Origin: Chryseobacterium daecheongense
Lineage (GTDB): Bacteria; Bacteroidota; Bacteroidia; Flavobacteriales; Weeksellaceae
Assembly: GCF_003729955.1 (NCBI RefSeq)
Contig: NZ_RJTX01000001.1
Location: 372,001-436,000, forward strand
Reading direction: 5' to 3'
Length of the DNA: 64,000 nucleotides
The position numbers were made by a program, and so were the translations under genes. Under the pieces are notes generated by a model. The model had not been told where the DNA came from, ran no database searches, and worked only from the letters and a program-made list of their open reading frames with translations. This document shows, one piece after another, positions 8,710-58,610 of the stretch (the first letter of the stretch is position 1; every line of letters begins with the position of its first letter).

Positions 8710-9717
8710 ATGAAAGAATTTTCGAAAGAGGTATACCTGAAGTGGTATGAAGATATGACAATGTGGAGAAGGTTTGAAGACAAATGCCGTTCTCTTTATC
8801 TAAAACAAAAAATCAGAGGTTTCTTACACTTGTATAACGGCCAGGAAGCTATTCCGGCAGGTTTTACCCATGCAATGGATTTAACCAAAGATAGTATGAT
8901 TACTGCTTACAGGTGCCACATCCATCCTATGGCGATGGGAGTAGATCCTAAGAGAATCATGGCGGAACTTTGCGGTAAAGCAACTGGAACGTCCGGAGGT
9001 ATGGGTGGTTCTATGCACATTTTCAGTAAAGAGCACCGTTTCTATGGAGGCCATGGTATCGTTGGAGGACAAATTCCTTTAGGAGCCGGAATCGCTTTTG
9101 CTGATAAATATTTTGACAGAAAGGCTGTCAATATCTGTTTCTTCGGAGATGGTGCGGCAAGACAAGGTTCATTACATGAAACATTCAATATGGCAATGAA
9201 CTGGAAGCTACCTGTAGTATTTGTGGTAGAGAACAACCAATATGCAATGGGAACTTCTGTAAAAAGAACAGCTAACCATGAAGATATCTATAAATTAGGT
9301 TTAGGGTATGAAATGCCTTGTCTTCCGGTAGACGCAATGGACCCGGAAAAAGTAGCAGAAGCTGCTTATGAAGCTATTGAAAGAGCAAGAAGAGGAGACG
9401 GACCTACTTTCATTGAAGCAAGAACTTACCGTTACAGAGGACATTCAATGTCTGATGCTGAACCATACAGAAGCAAAGAAGAGGTTGCTATTCATAAAAA
9501 TGATGACCCTATTGAATTGGTAAAACAAAGAATTTTAGCTAATAACTGGGCAACGGAAGAAGAATTGGAAGCTTTGGATAACAAATCAAGAGATTTTGTG
9601 GAGGAATGTATAGAATTTATGGAAAATTCTCCATATCCTACGGCAGAGAAGATCTATGAGTACGTTTACGCTCAGGAAGACTATCCGTTCTTAGATAAAT
9701 TAGAAAATAATAATTAG
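8710..9717 (+). CDS. pdhA: Pyruvate dehydrogenase E1 component, alpha subunit
   Basis: Thiamine-pyrophosphate-dependent decarboxylase subunit (335 residues) of the pyruvate dehydrogenase complex; with E1 beta it converts pyruvate to an acetyl group loaded on lipoate. The TPP-binding motif is clear: GDGAARQG at about 147-154 followed by ENNQYAMGT at about 174-182. The regulatory loop region YRYRGHSMSDAEPYR is at about 240-254. Length is typical for the E1-alpha of an alpha2beta2 enzyme. The E2 gene follows after 80 nt; E1 beta is not in this window, as is usual in Flavobacteriia. Confidence 0.97.
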   Translation: MKEFSKEVYLKWYEDMTMWRRFEDKCRSLYLKQKIRGFLHLYNGQEAIPAGFTHAMDLTKDSMITAYRCHIHPMAMGVDPKRIMAELCGKATGTSGGMGGSMHIFSKEHRFYGGHGIVGGQIPLGAGIAFADKYFDRKAVNICFFGDGAARQGSLHETFNMAMNWKLPVVFVVENNQYAMGTSVKRTANHEDIYKLGLGYEMPCLPVDAMDPEKVAEAAYEAIERARRGDGPTFIEARTYRYRGHSMSDAEPYRSKEEVAIHKNDDPIELVKQRILANNWATEEELEALDNKSRDFVEECIEFMENSPYPTAEKIYEYVYAQEDYPFLDKLENNN

Positions 9718-9797
9718 ATAATTTGAGAATTTGAAAATGAGTTAATTATTTTTAATTCTCACATCATCACATTAACAAATTATCATATTAGAAAATT
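9718..9797. repeat. Degenerate inverted repeat in the pdhA-E2 spacer
   Basis: The spacer reads as short AT-rich units: AATTTGAG/AATTTGAA-like units on the left and their rough complements (ATTCTCACATCATC, AACAAATTATCATATTAG) on the right, able to fold as an imperfect stem. It resembles the period-7 arrays at 43.26, 43.66 and 54.4-54.5 kb but is more degraded. Confidence 0.4.
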
Positions 9798-11417
9798 ATG
9801 GCAGAAGTTATTACAATGCCTCGTCTTTCCGATACAATGACGGAAGGTAAAGTGGCAAAATGGCATAAAAAAGTAGGAGATAAAGTAAAGGAAGGAGATA
9901 TTTTAGCTGAAATTGAAACAGATAAAGCGGTTCAGGATTTCGAATCTGAAATAGAAGGAACCCTTTTATACGTGGGTGTAGAAGAAGGTAATGCAGCAGC
10001 TGTAGATTCTGTTTTGGCAATTATTGGTAGTGAAGGAGAAGATATTTCCGGATTGACCGGAGAAAGCGCTCCTGCTGCATCCGGTTCTGAAGAAAAGAAA
10101 TCAGAAGAGGAATCTAAAACGGAAAACGAAACAACAAGCGTAGAACAAACTACAGCAGAAGTTCCTGCTGGCGTTGAAATTATTACCATGCCTAGACTTT
10201 CTGATACAATGACGGAAGGTAAAGTGGCGAAATGGCATAAAAATGTAGGCGATACAGTAAAAGAAGGTGATCTTCTTGCTGAAATCGAAACAGATAAAGC
10301 GGTTCAGGATTTTGAATCCGAATTCAATGGAGTGTTATTGAAGCAAGGGGTAGAAGAAGGAGGAGCTGCTCCGGTAGATTCTGTTTTGGCCATTATCGGT
10401 CCTGAAGGAACAGATGTTTCCGGAGTTGGTGCTGCTAAACCTGCTGTTCAATCTCAAGCAGAAAAACCTGCTGAACAAAAAACTGAAGCTAAGACAGAAG
10501 AAAAAACAGCTCCGGCTGCAAGCTCTTCATCTACGGACAGAGTAGCAATTTCTCCGTTAGCGAAGAAAATGGCTCAAGAAAAAGGAGTTGATATCAATGC
10601 TGTTCAAGGTTCAGGAGAAAATGGAAGAATCGTTAAAAAAGATATTGAAAATTATCAACCATCTGCAAAACCGGCAGCTTCTGCATCTGCTCCGGCTGTA
10701 AGTGCTGCTGCACAAGTTGCCGTCAACTTTGTACAGGGTGAAGATACAGAAACTCCAAACTCTCAGGTAAGAAATATTATTGCAAAACGTCTTTCCGAAA
10801 GTAAATTCACTGCTCCTCACTATTACCTGATGGTGGAGATCAATATGGATAAGGCCATTGAAGCAAGAAAAGAGATCAATTCTTTACCAGATACAAAAAT
10901 TTCTTTCAATGATATGATCATCAAAGCAACAGCGATTGCTTTAAGAAAACATCCGCAGGTGAATTCAAGCTGGGCTGGAGATAAGATCATTCATAGAGGA
11001 AATATCAATATTGGAGTAGCCGTGGCAATTCCTGACGGATTAGTAGTTCCTGTTCTAAGGAATACAGATCAGATGAGCTATACTCAAATTTCTGCTGCTG
11101 TAAAAGACATGGCTTCAAGAGCTAAATCTAAAGGTCTTAAAGCAAATGAAATGGAAGGTTCTACATTCTCTATTTCTAATTTAGGAATGTTCGGAATTGA
11201 AACCTTTACAAGTATCATCAATCAACCAAATTCTGCGATCCTTTCTGTGGGAGCAATTGTTGAGAAACCAATTGTTAAAGATGGACAGATCGTGGTTGGA
11301 AATATCATGAAACTTTCATTAGCTTGTGATCACAGAGTTGTAGATGGTGCTACAGGTGCAGAATTCTTACAAACTTTAAGAACATATCTGGAAAGTCCTT
11401 TAACTTTATTACTGTAA
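9798..11417 (+). CDS. pdhC: Pyruvate dehydrogenase E2, dihydrolipoamide acetyltransferase
   Basis: Core acetyltransferase (539 residues) of the pyruvate dehydrogenase complex. It has two lipoyl domains (about 3-78 and 131-206), each with the lipoylated Lys in ETDKAVQDFES; Ala/Pro/Glu-rich linkers; a peripheral-subunit-binding domain (about 250-287, ISPLAKKMAQEKG to GRIVKKDIE); and the catalytic domain (about 310-539) with the active-site motif DHRVVDG near 513-519. The two lipoyl domains are nearly identical over long runs, which indicates an internal duplication. It is co-directional with pdhA and ends at a strong terminator. Confidence 0.97.
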   Translation: MAEVITMPRLSDTMTEGKVAKWHKKVGDKVKEGDILAEIETDKAVQDFESEIEGTLLYVGVEEGNAAAVDSVLAIIGSEGEDISGLTGESAPAASGSEEKKSEEESKTENETTSVEQTTAEVPAGVEIITMPRLSDTMTEGKVAKWHKNVGDTVKEGDLLAEIETDKAVQDFESEFNGVLLKQGVEEGGAAPVDSVLAIIGPEGTDVSGVGAAKPAVQSQAEKPAEQKTEAKTEEKTAPAASSSSTDRVAISPLAKKMAQEKGVDINAVQGSGENGRIVKKDIENYQPSAKPAASASAPAVSAAAQVAVNFVQGEDTETPNSQVRNIIAKRLSESKFTAPHYYLMVEINMDKAIEARKEINSLPDTKISFNDMIIKATAIALRKHPQVNSSWAGDKIIHRGNINIGVAVAIPDGLVVPVLRNTDQMSYTQISAAVKDMASRAKSKGLKANEMEGSTFSISNLGMFGIETFTSIINQPNSAILSVGAIVEKPIVKDGQIVVGNIMKLSLACDHRVVDGATGAEFLQTLRTYLESPLTLLL

Positions 11418-42079: not shown

Positions 42080-43258
42080 TTAAAGTAGTTCAAATATTGA
42101 TGCGGCTCCTTGTCCTGTTCCTACACACATTGAAACCATTCCGTATTTGTTTCCGCGTTTTCTCATTTCATCAAGAAGCTGAACGGTTAATTTTGTTCCT
42201 GTACATCCAAGAGGGTGTCCCAGAGCAATGGCACCTCCGTTTACATTCAAAATGTCAGGATTCAGTCCTAATTCTTTTTTAATGGCAACGGATTGAGAAG
42301 CAAATGCTTCATTCAGCTCAATCAATTCAATGTCCTTTAATTCAAGACCTGCTTGTTTTAATGCTTTTGGAATAGCATAGATGGGCCCCATTCCCATAAT
42401 TCTTGGTTCAAGCCCGGCTGCTGCATAAGCTACTAATCTTGCTTCTGGCTGCAGTCCTAATTCTTTCACCATTTCTTCACTCATTACCATTACGAAAGCT
42501 GCCCCGTCGCTCATTTGTGAAGAGTTTCCGGCAGTTACGCTTCCTCCATTGGCAAATACAGGCTTTAATTTTGCAAGACCTTCCAAAGAAGTATCTGCTC
42601 TTGGGCCTTCATCTACTGAGAAATCGAATTTTTTAGTCTGCATTTTCTGGTTTTCATCCAGAAAGTTATATTCAACAGGAATAGGAACGATCTGATTGAC
42701 AAATCTGCCTTCTTGATTAGCTTTTAAAGCTTTCATGTGAGATTCAAATGCAAACTGATCCTGTTCCTCTCTTGTGATTTTATATTGTTTGGCAACTTCT
42801 TCCGCAGTGTAGCCCATTCCCCAGTAATAGTCGGGGTTGGTTTTTGCAATATCCGTTTCCGGAACCGGTTTATAACCTCCCATTGGAATATAGGACATAG
42901 ATTCCGTACCTCCTGCGATGATACAGTCTGCCATTCCAGCTTGGATTTTTGCTGAAGCAATGGCGATCGCTTCGCTTCCTGATGCACAATATCTGTTGAC
43001 TGTAACCCCCGGAACTTTGTCTGTATTCAGTCCCATTAAGGAGATCAAACGGGCAACGTTCAAGCCCTGTTCAGCCTCAGGCATTGCATTTCCTACGATA
43101 AGGTCGTCAATCCTGTTTTTGTCTAATTGCGGAAGTTCAGCCATCAATTTTTCAATAACTGTAGCCGCCATTACATCGGGTCTTGTAAATCTTAAACTTC
43201 CTTTTGGAGCTTTTCCAACGGCCGTTCTGTAACCCTTTACTATGTATGCTGTTTTCAT
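42080..43258 (-). CDS. fadA: Acetyl-CoA acyltransferase (3-ketoacyl-CoA thiolase)
   Basis: Thiolase of 392 residues, the last step of each beta-oxidation cycle. The nucleophile is Cys91 in NRYCASG; GGAIALGHPLGCTG (about 342-355) holds the active-site His and MCVGTGQGAA (about 377-386) the proton-donating Cys. It is in the operon with the HCDH/ECH fusion (upstream) and acyl-CoA dehydrogenase (downstream); a four-helix-bundle gene interrupts the run just upstream. Confidence 0.96.
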   Translation of the reverse strand: MKTAYIVKGYRTAVGKAPKGSLRFTRPDVMAATVIEKLMAELPQLDKNRIDDLIVGNAMPEAEQGLNVARLISLMGLNTDKVPGVTVNRYCASGSEAIAIASAKIQAGMADCIIAGGTESMSYIPMGGYKPVPETDIAKTNPDYYWGMGYTAEEVAKQYKITREEQDQFAFESHMKALKANQEGRFVNQIVPIPVEYNFLDENQKMQTKKFDFSVDEGPRADTSLEGLAKLKPVFANGGSVTAGNSSQMSDGAAFVMVMSEEMVKELGLQPEARLVAYAAAGLEPRIMGMGPIYAIPKALKQAGLELKDIELIELNEAFASQSVAIKKELGLNPDILNVNGGAIALGHPLGCTGTKLTVQLLDEMRKRGNKYGMVSMCVGTGQGAASIFELL

Positions 43259-43261
43259 ATT

Positions 43262-43296
43262 TTAGAAGTTAGAATTTAGAGGTTAGATATTAGGTT
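43262..43296 (+). repeat. Array of five TTAGNNN heptads (left arm)
   Basis: TTAGAAG-TTAGAAT then TTAGAGG-TTAGATA-TTAGGTT, five units in strict period 7. The array stops 1 bp before the end of the four-helix-bundle gene and begins 3 bp before the thiolase start codon. The mirror array on the other side runs in the opposite direction. Confidence 0.85.
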
Positions 43297-43297
43297 T

Positions 43298-43660
43298 CTA
43301 ACCTTTTGTTAAATTAATTTTAAACTTATAAATCATCTTCTGAATTTCATTTAGATTATTTAATAAAGGTGTGACATCATCATCATTTATAAAACTTAAA
43401 TCAATTAAAAGAATTAGTTGTGTTCCAAGTTCATAGCAAGAACCTGAAGCAATACCTAAAAAATGATTAAATTCTTTCATGTTATTTCTTCCTGCACCTT
43501 CAGCGATATTAGAAGGAATTGAAACTGCACATCTTCTGATTTGAGGAGTAAGACCAAACTTTTCTTCGGAGGGTAGTTTCTCCGTTAAAAGATAAATTTC
43601 TTTAACCAAAACCATAGATTTCTTCCAAATAATTAAGTCTTGTAATCTATGTGCACTCAT
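43298..43660 (-). CDS. Four-helix-bundle protein (S23 / IVP family)
   Basis: A 120-residue helical protein of the 23S rRNA-intervening-sequence (S23, PF05635-type) family: HRLQDLIIWKKSMVLVKEIY (helix 1), FGLTPQIRRCAVSIPSNIAEG then AGRNNMKEFNHFLGIASGSCYEL (helices 2-3) and a last helix with QKMIYKFKINL. IPSNIAEG is the family signature. Relatives include the DGR accessory protein Avd. Function is unknown. The gene splits a beta-oxidation operon and is bracketed by inverted TTAGNNN arrays, so it looks like an inserted cassette. Confidence 0.93.
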   Translation of the reverse strand: MSAHRLQDLIIWKKSMVLVKEIYLLTEKLPSEEKFGLTPQIRRCAVSIPSNIAEGAGRNNMKEFNHFLGIASGSCYELGTQLILLIDLSFINDDDVTPLLNNLNEIQKMIYKFKINLTKG

Positions 43661-43695
43661 CTAGTTTCTAATATCTAATATCTAACTTCTAATTC
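43661..43695 (-). repeat. Array of five TTAGNNN heptads (right arm, inverted)
   Basis: Read on the plus strand: CTAGTTT, CTAATAT twice, CTAACTT, CTAATTC, and then CTAAGCG within the fad gene; on the minus strand these are TTAGNNN-type units (one CTAG variant) in period 7. The array starts 1 bp after the four-helix-bundle start codon and runs over the stop of the HCDH/ECH gene. Confidence 0.85.
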
Positions 43696-46094
43696 CTAAG
43701 CGGTTTTCCATTCTGTAACATGTACTGAATTCTCTCCAATGTTTTTCTTTCCCCACAAAGCTGTAAGAAAGTTTCTCTCTCAAGGTTCAATAGGTATTGT
43801 TCCGTTACAACGGTAGGTTCGGAAAGATTTCCTCCCACCATTACGTTAGCTAATTTGTCTGCAATTTTCTTATCGTGCTCAGAGATATAATTTCCGGTCA
43901 GCATTTGATCTGTTCCTACATAGAACATACCTAAAGCATCTTTACCTAAAACTTTTACAGATTGTTGAATAGGTTGAGTATACCCTTGTTCTGCCAATAA
44001 TCTGGCTACCTTTTTAGCTTCTGCGATCTGCCTGTTTTTATTTACAACTACGATGTCTTTTCCTTTTTCAAGGATTCCCATGTCATAAGCTTCATAAGCA
44101 GAAGTAGCCACTTTACCCATCGCAATGTTCATGAAGGCATCACGAAGTCTATTATTTTTAACGTCGTCATTGTGGAATTCTCTAGAAGTTCTTAAGGTTA
44201 ACTCCTTTGTACCACCACCACCAGGAATTACTCCAACGCCGGTTTCAACCAATCCTATATATGTTTCTGCTGCTGCAACCACTCTGTCGGCATGCATGGT
44301 CATTTCACAACCACCTCCTAAAGTCATTCCGTGAGGGGCAACCACTACAGGAATAGAGGAGTAGCGAACTCTCATCATCGATTTCTGGAAATATGCGATG
44401 GCCATATTCAAATCATCCCAATCCTGCTCGATAGCCATCATAAGGATCATGGCTAAATTGGCTCCCACGGAGAAATTAGACGCTTGATTTCCAATTACTA
44501 AACCGTCATACTCTTTTTCAGCTAAGTCGATAGCTCTGTTTAATCCGTCTAATACTTCGCCACCAAGAGAGTTCATTTTAGAACGGATCTCGAAGTTGAT
44601 GATTCCATCGCCTAAGTCTTCAATAGCAGCCCCGGAATTGCTCCAGAGTGTTTTGTTTTTTCTGATATTATCTAAAATGATGAATGCATCCTGCCCAGGA
44701 ATATTGTTATAATTTCCTGAATTTTTGTCATAATAAATGCTTTGGCCTTCATCATTCACTTTATAGAACGTTCCTCCTTTTTCAGCTAAAGATTTCGCCC
44801 AATCTGAAACTTCGTATCCTGCTTCTTTTGCCAATTCAACACCTTTTGCTACACCAACGGCGTCCCAGATTTCAAATGGTCCGTTTTCCCAACCGAAACC
44901 TGCTCTCATAGCGTCATCAATTTTGTAGATATCATCAGAGATTTCAGGAACTTTATGAGAAACATAAGCGAATAATGCTCCCAGAGATTTTCTGTACAAT
45001 TCGCCTGCTTTATCTTTTCCACCGATCAGAACTTTAAATCTGTCAATCGGTTTATCAATAGTTTTAGTTAATTCCAGAGTAGGGAATGAAGATTTTCCCT
45101 GAAGCTCATATTCTAAGGTATCAAGATTCAGCCCATGAATTTCAGATTTTCCTTCTGCGTTTTTCACTTTTTTATAGAATCCCTGTTCTGTTTTTGAGCC
45201 CAGCCATTTATTATCTACCATTTTCTGGATATAATCCGGAAGTGCAAATACATCATTAAAATCATTGGCTTCAGCTCCGCTTTGACGAACTCCATTGGCA
45301 ACCATAACCAAAGTATCAAGACCTACAACATCCGCCGTTCTGAATGTGGCAGATTTTGGACGTCCGATTACAGGTCCTGTTAATTTATCAACGTCAGAAA
45401 CGGTTAATCCTAATTTTTGAACGTTGTGAAGGAGATCCATCATGGAGAAAACTCCAATTCTGTTGGCAATGAATGCAGGTGTATCTTTAGCTAAAACAGT
45501 AGTTTTACCTAAGAATTTGGCTCCATAATTCATGTAGAAATCTACAATTTCAGGGGCTGTATCATTGGTTGGAATGATCTCTAAAAGAGGAAGATATCTT
45601 ACAGGATTAAAAAAGTGGGTTCCTGCAAAATACTTTTTAAAATCCTCGCTTCTTCCTTCCGTTAATAAATGGATAGGAATTCCGGAGGTATTAGAAGAAA
45701 TTAATGTTCCCGGTTTTCTGAACTGTTCGATCTTTTCATAGACAGATTTTTTAATGTCGAGTCTTTCCACCACAACTTCGATGATCCAGTCCGTATCTTT
45801 TATTTTCGGTAAATCATCATCAAAGTTTCCTATTTTTATCCTGTCAGCAAATTTTTGTGAATAAAGCAAAGCCGGGCTTGCTTTCTTCAGTTTTTCAAAG
45901 TTTTCCGCAGCGATCCTGTTTCTTACTGCTTTATCTTCTTTGGTCAAACCTTTTTTCTGTTCAGCTTCAGTCAATTCAAAAGGAACAATATCCAGCAATG
46001 ACACTTCCACACCAATATTGGCGAAGTGTGCCGCGATACCGCTTCCCATAATTCCTGAACCGAGAACCGTCACATGTTTGATTCTTCTTTTCAT
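43689..46094 (-). CDS. 3-hydroxyacyl-CoA dehydrogenase / enoyl-CoA hydratase fusion
   Basis: Bifunctional beta-oxidation enzyme (801 residues). NAD-binding HCDH first: VLGSGIMGSGIAAHF (about 10-24), FFNPVRYLPLLEIIP (about 170-184); then the enoyl-CoA hydratase domain in the last third, with GGGCEMTMHADR (about 587-598) and GVGVIPGGGGTKE carrying the two catalytic-type Glu positions. The order HCDH-ECH is the reverse of E. coli FadB and typical of Bacteroidota. It follows marR by 64 nt. The final codons coincide with the first heptads of the downstream array, so the array grew up to, or into, the 3' end. Confidence 0.95.
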   Translation of the reverse strand: MKRRIKHVTVLGSGIMGSGIAAHFANIGVEVSLLDIVPFELTEAEQKKGLTKEDKAVRNRIAAENFEKLKKASPALLYSQKFADRIKIGNFDDDLPKIKDTDWIIEVVVERLDIKKSVYEKIEQFRKPGTLISSNTSGIPIHLLTEGRSEDFKKYFAGTHFFNPVRYLPLLEIIPTNDTAPEIVDFYMNYGAKFLGKTTVLAKDTPAFIANRIGVFSMMDLLHNVQKLGLTVSDVDKLTGPVIGRPKSATFRTADVVGLDTLVMVANGVRQSGAEANDFNDVFALPDYIQKMVDNKWLGSKTEQGFYKKVKNAEGKSEIHGLNLDTLEYELQGKSSFPTLELTKTIDKPIDRFKVLIGGKDKAGELYRKSLGALFAYVSHKVPEISDDIYKIDDAMRAGFGWENGPFEIWDAVGVAKGVELAKEAGYEVSDWAKSLAEKGGTFYKVNDEGQSIYYDKNSGNYNNIPGQDAFIILDNIRKNKTLWSNSGAAIEDLGDGIINFEIRSKMNSLGGEVLDGLNRAIDLAEKEYDGLVIGNQASNFSVGANLAMILMMAIEQDWDDLNMAIAYFQKSMMRVRYSSIPVVVAPHGMTLGGGCEMTMHADRVVAAAETYIGLVETGVGVIPGGGGTKELTLRTSREFHNDDVKNNRLRDAFMNIAMGKVATSAYEAYDMGILEKGKDIVVVNKNRQIAEAKKVARLLAEQGYTQPIQQSVKVLGKDALGMFYVGTDQMLTGNYISEHDKKIADKLANVMVGGNLSEPTVVTEQYLLNLERETFLQLCGERKTLERIQYMLQNGKPLRN

Positions 46095-54396: not shown

Positions 54397-54398
54397 AA

Positions 54399-54528
54399 TT
54401 AGAGGTTAGAAGTTAGAAAAGATAATTCTGATAAGGTTATAATAGAGTAGAGATAAACATTATCAGATTATTGTTTGAATTGAATGTTCTATAAATTTTA
54501 CTAATTCCTAACTTCTAACGACTAATTT
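54399..54528. repeat. Inverted TTAGNNN heptad arrays around 81-bp spacer
   Basis: Left arm at 54399-54419: TTAGAGG, TTAGAAG, TTAGAAA. Right arm at 54501-54528: CTAATTC, CTAACTT, CTAACGA, CTAATTT, which are TTAGNNN-type units on the minus strand. Both are in strict period 7. The 81-bp spacer holds no gene, but TCTGATAA and TTATCAGA repeat inside it as a nested inverted pair. Confidence 0.8.
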
Positions 54529-54532
54529 ATGA

Positions 54533-55030
54533 TTATATCAGCTGTTCCATACTGGAAACACTTTTGTTCTTCTGGTAGTTTTCCAATTTTTTTCTGACGA
54601 ATTTCAAGGCAACAGGAGCCAAGTAAATCATAGCGAGACCTAACATTTTTTTCTTCCAATTAGGGCTGCTCATACTTTTCTTAGCATAATTTCCCACTAC
54701 TGCTGTAATCCCAAGTTTGATCACAGCATCCATTGCATTTCCTTTGAAAGCAGAATTGGCAATTCCCATTGCGGTATTTTTGCTGATAAGCAAATCTTTA
54801 ACTTCGGAAGTGATTTGCTTGGCAATGACATCTTTTCTAAGCACAACCTTTTCATCACCGTCTTCATCCACTTTTTCCTGCAGATACTGATCTGTTAAAC
54901 CATTGGTGAATGCACTTAAGCTTTCTTTGGTATTTTTGAAAGTAAGAAGGCCTTCCAAATCATTGATCTCGTTTTTCAATAATTTTTTCTTTCTCCTTAA
55001 TTCCTCTAAGCTCTCATAATTTCTGCCCAT
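54533..55030 (-). CDS. Conserved hypothetical, YtxH-cluster partner
   Basis: A 165-residue protein: a charged coiled-coil N-terminus (about 5-45, with ELRRKKKLLKNEINDLEGL), an acidic middle, and a C-terminal amphipathic/hydrophobic stretch (about 100-150) near KKMLGLAMIYLAPVALKF. No known domain is recognised. It follows the holin-like gene by 3 nt, and this three-gene set with YtxH is common in Flavobacteriia. Function unknown, perhaps envelope stress. Confidence 0.72.
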   Translation of the reverse strand: MGRNYESLEELRRKKKLLKNEINDLEGLLTFKNTKESLSAFTNGLTDQYLQEKVDEDGDEKVVLRKDVIAKQITSEVKDLLISKNTAMGIANSAFKGNAMDAVIKLGITAVVGNYAKKSMSSPNWKKKMLGLAMIYLAPVALKFVRKKLENYQKNKSVSSMEQLI

Positions 55031-58494: not shown

Positions 58495-58610
58495 ATGGGC
58501 AGCAGATAATAGGAATTAGGATTTTGAATATATAAATTACTATTACCTATCGTTATCATTTATCAATCATCATTTATAAAATGTGTAACCTATCAAATTT
58601 TAATTATATA

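Follow-up and report, generated by a model that had tools for sequence, protein, structure and literature searches.

The window, i.e. the whole stretch of 64,000 nucleotides that was analysed, carries a fad operon on its minus strand, and a small gene of the S23 family stands in this operon between a fadB-like gene and a thiolase gene, with an array of tandem heptanucleotides on either side. The features are listed below in the order of the operon.

43689-46094, minus strand: fadB-like host gene, upstream in the operon (3HCDH_N, 3HCDH and ECH_1)
43661-43699, minus strand: 5' arm in the sense of the S23 gene (heptad scan, arm complementarity)
43298-43660, minus strand: S23 / 23S_rRNA_IVP four-helix-bundle gene, 120 aa (PF05635, TIGR02436, AlphaFold model, fold match)
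43262-43297, minus strand: 3' arm in the sense of the S23 gene, five CTAA units, inverse of the 5' arm (heptad scan, RNA fold)
42080-43258, minus strand: thiolase host gene, downstream in the operon (family search)

On the plus strand the TTAGNNN units start at 43262, 43269, 43276, 43283 and 43290 and the CTAA units at 43668, 43675, 43682, 43689 and 43696, both series in strict 7-nt register. The five TTAG heptads per side, in opposite orientation, of the original prediction are thus confirmed at every start position, and complementarity between the two arms (43262-43293 and 43668-43699) is 84% over 32 nt, with 374 nt separating them. Read 5' to 3' towards the ATG, the 5' arm is TTAGGAA TTAGAAG TTAGATA TTAGATA TTAGAAA CTAG. 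On the fadB side the outermost TTAG belongs to the coding sequence of fadB, and the unit after it holds the fadB stop codon; since these outer units overlap the end of fadB, about four units there are clearly outside it. None of 200 shuffles of the window (single bases, 1-kb blocks) gave four TTAGNNN units in register. An acyl-CoA dehydrogenase gene is a further operon neighbour and a MarR-family gene lies upstream, so that the interruption of a fad operon by the S23 gene, as first described, was correct for all four neighbours. The element sits in a gap of a protein-coding operon, not in an rRNA gene.

The S23 protein

The window protein matched PF05635 at 139.5 bits (cut-off 33.8), the sole domain found, and TIGR02436 at 129.1 bits. 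Its AlphaFold model, built as a monomer, has four helices (pLDDT 94.7); the best fold match was Xcc0516 (2gsc_B, TM 0.92, rmsd 0.8), and BT_0352 (2rld) was matched as well. Both solved relatives have five chains per entry, and the coincidence of a putative five-member ring with arms of about five repeats is at most suggestive. The next fold matches were Avd, the DGR accessory protein (TM 0.77-0.80 to chains of 4dwl, ~11% identity), and chains of the RT ribonucleoprotein 8ub7 (a DGR reverse-transcriptase particle) that we take to be Avd. Membership in the DGR Avd family was rejected at 26.1 bits to NF033474 (cut-off 80); the Avd/DGR link suggested earlier for this gene therefore stands for the fold and falls for family membership. 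To our knowledge S23 proteins have no catalytic domain. Identity as a REP/RAYT gene was likewise rejected, the Y1 transposase domain being absent and PF05635 alone being found. A single-sequence query found no relatives in viral contigs. PF05635 is likened to Avd in a passage of PMC10053308.

Arrays and S23 genes in the same genome

In 464 kb of the same genome, the window included, we counted seven strong arrays (at least 21 matches in 28, low-complexity arrays excluded) at period 7 and between zero and two at any of the other periods in the range 4-15. The arms of the window element account for two of the seven; among the other five, one falls within a long ORF and the remaining four carry words resembling S23 arm words (two TTAG, one GCTTATT and one GTACAAT). 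The genome has six S23 genes, and the check for arrays at each copy, as suggested with the original prediction, showed that four of the six have paired short-period arrays, one pair being of period 8 and one upstream arm weak. The best matches in 28 (upstream, downstream) were 23 and 21 for the window gene, 18 and 22 for L004 and 16 and 22 for L006, the one with the weak upstream arm, all at period 7, and 20 and 19 at period 8 for L002; L003 (16 and 18 at period 6) and L005 have no clear paired arrays. By eye, without family search, L004 lies between apparent groES and groEL genes.

Three further places in the window carry arrays. A gene-less inverted pair of period-8 arrays (9695-9803) fills the gap that separates the pyruvate dehydrogenase E1 gene from the E2 gene; a gene-less TTAG/CTAA inverted pair, seen by eye at 54397-54535 between convergent ORFs, has the word of the fad element; and a short period-7 array (58553-58588) occupies the gap after a gene that, by eye, resembles UMP kinase.

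Heptad arms across the S23 family

The flanks of 163 Bacteroidota S23 genes, dereplicated and each with at least 150 nt of flanking sequence, were scored, an arm being called at 18 or more matches in 28. Since 95 of these genes come from the window's genus, many at shared sites, the entries are not independent. Period 7 passed in 76/163 upstream and 80/163 downstream flanks, vs 32/583 and 34/524 flanks of control genes and 1/326 shuffles; the corresponding counts for the S23 flanks were 10 and 13 at period 8, 41 and 49 at the harmonic period 14, 7 and 2 at period 15, and 0-4 at the remaining periods. Outside the genus, 22/68 upstream and 25/68 downstream flanks passed at period 7. At least one arm passed in 105/163 genes and both in 51/163, and an inverted-arm score of 16 or more was reached by 93/163, vs 13 in direct orientation and 7 after shuffling. 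The arms have a median of 4 to 5 units (139 arrays passing a stricter score).

A second set spans many phyla: 80 loci were kept out of at least 569 confirmed relatives, and 79 were used after one at a contig edge (L256) was dropped. This set was drawn from the matches listed and is therefore biased toward relatives of the query. Among the matches listed, period 7 passed in 44 upstream and 33 downstream flanks of the 79 loci, vs 51/1769 control segments; 37/79 were inverted, vs 9 direct and 0 shuffled, and both arms passed in 23/79. By record title 42 of these listed matches are Bacteroidota and 37 are not, and the latter (Chloroflexota, Acidobacteria, Planctomycetota, Poribacteria, Proteobacteria, Cyanobacteria, CPR and others) have 23 upstream and 14 downstream arms, at least one arm in 29 loci and both in 8. 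The sole archaeal locus kept, L272, has no period-7 arm. By the flank counts, strong arrays are present at this threshold in about half of S23 flanks and absent from the other half. Other S23 copies lacking arrays had been named as grounds against the original prediction; this objection fails, since arrays were found upstream of 76 and downstream of 80 of the 163 genes and, among the matches listed, upstream of 44 and downstream of 33 of the 79.

The arms also have a polarity. The 5' arm is richer in G than in C in 85 Bacteroidota cases, vs 6 with the reverse, and in 29 vs 15 of the many-phyla cases among the matches listed, where the bias is weaker; a G-rich 5' arm was thus rejected as a universal rule. 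A global link between repeat word and protein was rejected as well, since the Mantel correlation was -0.04 (p = 0.95) once orthologous sites were removed. Within orthologous elements, arms of the same genome were no closer to each other than arms taken from two genomes (p = 0.52 when pooled; p = 0.02 in one of the nine orthologous groups), and no ongoing joint renewal of the two arms is therefore visible.

The fad gaps of related genomes

Two gaps of the fad operon were compared in 60 congeners, gap1 between fadB and thiolase and gap2 between thiolase and acyl-CoA dehydrogenase. Gap1 holds an S23 gene in 21/60 genomes (17 of MHNFR type, 2 of the window's AHRL type and 2 of MHNIKK type) and a REP-flanked insertion of more than 400 nt in another 21/60 (pattern-based); the rest are other insertions of more than 400 nt in 5, gaps of 61-400 nt in 12 and a gap of 27 nt in one. 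The single REP-flanked ORF tested is a Y1 transposase (PF01797). One such REP-flanked insertion, at L012:901-1401, occupies the place where other congeners hold S23. Gap2 holds S23 in 32/60 genomes (FKEDN 12, MKHNF 11, FKRHN 7, QKENL 2), and those without it have 3 gaps of 60 nt or less, 18 of 61-130 nt, 6 longer ones and 1 unreadable. Among the 18 gaps of 61-130 nt, 11 have inverted structure beyond their own shuffles (p <= 0.05 each, uncorrected). Two gap2 loci (L013 and L009) contain an insertion of ~570 nt with no S23 detected, and in three others (L024, L019 and L032) the gene-less or shrunken arms look, by eye, as though an S23 cassette had been deleted between direct repeats of one word.

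All 53 fad-gap S23 copies are oriented with the operon. On the tree at least three label changes are needed for gap1 and two for gap2, gains and losses being counted alike. In the S23 tree, which has few columns for its rows and some long branches that were flagged, the window S23 and L099 are joined (support 100/97) with S23 genes of another site that carry the same TTAG heptads. The near-empty fad gaps measure 27, 18 and 5 nt, in relatives too distant for the junctions to be defined, and neither a target-site duplication nor a fresh insertion between near-identical genomes turned up in the genomes compared. Presence at the same site in all relatives would have spoken against mobility; S23 was found in gap1 of only 21/60 genomes, and this patchy presence, with three S23 types and at least three label changes, agrees with the proposal of a mobile or once-mobile cassette ending in heptad arrays. 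Recurrent insertion as a unit is well supported.

The REP-flanked insertions raise the question of whether the arrays are moved in trans by another transposase, e.g. a RAYT, with S23 as cargo. The 21 pattern-based insertions of more than 400 nt in gap1, one with a tested Y1 transposase, place such an enzyme at the same site; the REP palindromes and the heptad arrays differ in sequence, however, and the array load follows S23 (see below), so that we regard this explanation as highly improbable.

Operon gaps and an rRNA gene

The neighbours were counted for 114 S23 loci that had not been obtained via thiolase (two of them, L001 and L063, are nonetheless fad copies). Both neighbours are co-directional with S23 in 80, the upstream one alone in 14, the downstream one alone in 5 and neither in 4, and the other 11 have a contig edge or a distant neighbour. 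Of 32 records with a match 16 were taken. In the 14 annotated cyanobacterial plasmid loci S23 has the orientation of both neighbours in 10 and the opposite one in 3, and one locus is mixed. In cyanobacterial plasmids S23 splits cas6-cas4 (two records) and cas10-cmr3, and one copy, in opposite orientation, splits nrdB-nrdA; these cas- and nrd-splitting genes (L195, L196, L200 and L201) have short-period arms by eye. Tandem heptanucleotides of period 7 were also seen by eye beside cyanobacterial S23 genes. In Sphaerospermopsis (G352), STRR1 adjoining an S23 gene was looked for and not found among the matches listed; some STRR1 loci of this genome pair inversely, by eye, with GGTAATT-type arms like those of one resident S23.

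One locus lies in an rRNA gene. In an Azospirillum plasmid record (L209), an unannotated S23-like ORF is located within an LSU rRNA gene, which the Rfam LSU model matched at 1469 bits, and the ORF is flanked on either side by heptads, among them GACGGAT and GACAGAG. The exact rRNA helix motif occurs in 1/381 loci, so that L209 is a single case. In passages of the literature, S23 genes are placed in or near cas loci (PMC3936711, PMC10910872), S23 ORFs are contained in CPR rRNA insertions (PMC11270868), and S23 genes are listed beside a guanylate kinase gene (PMC5524665). The anatomy is found at about half of the S23 genes tested and is spread over many phyla, with an operon-gap niche and an orientation bias.

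This niche is also what would be expected of a host regulatory cassette, in which an S23 ring binds the arrays in mRNA and regulates its own operon. S23 would then be a ring protein like TRAP. The pentameric relatives, the 4-5 units per arm, the arms near start and stop codons and the mostly co-directional operon position fit such a role. The patchy presence, the several S23 types and the REP-flanked insertions in the same gap do not, and the few named hosts (fad, nrd, cas and rRNA) have no common function; we consider it very unlikely.

Pairing of the arms

The RNA of the window element has a predicted folding energy of -93.6 kcal/mol (z = -2.92), which none of 100 shuffles reached, and the arms pair and enclose the gene; the long stem around the gene that had been anticipated is thus present in the predicted fold. 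In the Bacteroidota set the arm duplex has a median of -26.4 kcal/mol, vs -16.8 for shuffled arms, and beats its own single shuffle in 143/163 cases; the many-phyla duplex does so in 64/79 among the matches listed. The possible link to RNA processing that the original prediction had raised as a question is made stronger, since the S23-like ORF of the rRNA gene has heptad arms and the window arms pair.

Array load and S23 content

Matches to the TTAGANN array pattern were counted in 40 congeners with overlaps allowed, a long array thus being counted several times. Seven genomes have a member of the TTAG-word clade (at least 66% identity to L055; one copy is 102 aa), and their median is 41 matches, vs 3 in 31 genomes without a member (p = 1.2e-4); two genomes with truncated clade copies (38 and 23 matches) were set aside. 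The reversed pattern gave medians of 3 vs 2 (p = 0.13, or 0.04 with the truncated-copy genomes added). Several of the clade genomes are kin, yet non-clade neighbours at a like distance are low; G001 has 54 matches without a clade member. For the GTA word, grouped by gap1 presence in 60 genomes, the figures are 7 vs 3 (p = 0.008). A trans effect for the AGC word, whose pattern matches all 40 genomes, was rejected as not significant (p = 0.11). As judged from these sequence counts, a trans effect would be clear for one word only, TTAG.

The total load was followed in five congeners chosen for their S23 number. Those with 0, 1, 6, 11 and 13 S23 genes have 3, 5, 11, 29 and 35 period-7 arrays per 400 kb, a perfect order that at n = 5 would arise by chance once in 120. 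Averaged over seven other periods, the count stays at 0.9-2.1; in the genome with 13 S23 genes period 8 rises too, to 10. Of the 83 arrays, 80 are away from S23 genes and 3 are within 150 nt of an S23 ORF. The S23-free congener (G046) has three arrays, one of TTAG type, and its period 7 is about as frequent as other periods. One site is recurrently occupied by different S23 types, gene-less forms occur, and array and S23 loads co-vary in this small sample.

Two simpler readings bear on these counts. Heptad arrays could arise first, by replication slippage in A+T-rich operon gaps, with S23 landing in or beside them; gene-less arrays are indeed common, and among long simple repeats heptamers are the commonest class in the majority of genomes surveyed, according to passages of PMC4679880. 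Slippage alone gives neither inverted pairs flanking a gene nor arms within a 23S rRNA gene, and it fits poorly with the S23-free congener, where period 7 does not stand out; its probability is low. The other reading is a passenger like an rRNA intervening sequence (IVS), whose arms serve RNA processing or a hairpin and whose S23 protein has no part in making or spreading the arrays. The Coxiella IVS, as described in parts of PMC4990558, ends in a 28-bp stem, is a substrate of RNase III in vitro and contains an S23 gene suspected to be poorly translated; the paired arms in predicted RNA and the absence of concerted evolution of the arms (p = 0.52) would also suit a passenger. A mere stem does not need a 7-nt period, however, and gene-less arrays climb with S23 number and TTAG arrays with the TTAG-word clade, in samples that are small and partly kin; a passenger of this kind is in our judgement rather unlikely.

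Relation to known elements and a proposed mechanism

The 23S rRNA IVSs of Leptospira, Coxiella and others resemble the window element in having an S23 ORF between terminal inverted repeats, an RNA stem and a patchy distribution, and the sole rRNA copy examined here (Azospirillum, L209) is heptad-armed. The window element differs in that it lies in a protein-coding operon and its arms are tandem heptads. For the Coxiella IVS, a transposition remnant is among the hypotheses given in the same parts of PMC4990558. With REP/RAYT systems (REPIN) the element shares a single gene, flanks of inverted short repeats and an intergenic position, and both kinds occupy fad gap1; gene-less copies of the repeat in genomes with the gene are in clear excess for the TTAG word, less so for GTA and not significantly for AGC. 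In contrast to those systems, its gene lacks a Y1 transposase domain and its arms are tandem arrays instead of palindromes.

Period 7 is also shared with the cyanobacterial STRR, the Xanthomonas GGGAATC and Nostoc GGGGA(C/T)T repeats (PMC4692102) and TAACTGA (PMC4679880). According to the passages of PMC4692102, the GGGAATC and GGGGA(C/T)T heptads lie between aligned ORFs with four units preferred, either on the sense strand, within 50 bp past a stop codon, or on the antisense strand, up to 50 bp ahead of an ORF, and are generally not associated with mobile elements. As described there, the Xanthomonas and Nostoc heptads have the geometry and the G-rich polarity of the Bacteroidota S23 arms. 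A term search of PMC4692102 and PMC4679880 gave no mention of S23 or of a four-helix protein, and no link between S23 and heptad arrays was found in the titles, abstract openings and passages of the open-access papers listed.

We propose, with about an even chance of being right, that the gene and its inverted heptad arrays form an insertion element of the rRNA-IVS kind, the arms of which pair and the ring protein of which recognises the heptads and spreads or keeps such arrays in trans. The element would reside mostly in co-directional operon gaps and, in some bacteria, within rRNA genes as an intervening sequence, and would probably be transcribed with the host transcript. As the 5' arm pairs with the 3' arm, the gene would come to lie in the loop of a long imperfect hairpin; this hairpin could be excised by a double-strand RNase, and such excision would make the insertion tolerable. 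To judge from its relatives, S23 may form a ring of five four-helix bundles that reads repeats in 7-nt register, with about one subunit per repeat, and may promote the spread or upkeep of arrays of the matching word, gene-less ones included. RNA excision, recognition of the repeats by the protein and action in trans are the parts of this mechanism that we infer.

A wider proposal is made tentatively and with less than even confidence: S23 proteins would be the trans-acting factors behind bacterial heptanucleotide repeats, in an arrangement like REP/RAYT but lacking any transposase that can be recognised. A ring of five subunits resembling Avd would read the 7-nt repeats and seed inverted arrays both in the gaps of operons and within rRNA genes, and STRR, the GGGAATC-type repeats and rRNA intervening sequences would be one class of element. 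Three puzzles may then be one, namely the role of S23, its presence in rRNA intervening sequences and the origin of heptad repeats such as the cyanobacterial fingerprinting repeats and the Xanthomonas repeats. The S23 genes in cas loci may thereby be explained as well, as in the three cyanobacterial plasmids in which cas6-cas4 or cas10-cmr3 is split. The findings suggest an overlooked class of insertion elements that may explain 7-base repeats scattered through bacterial genomes.
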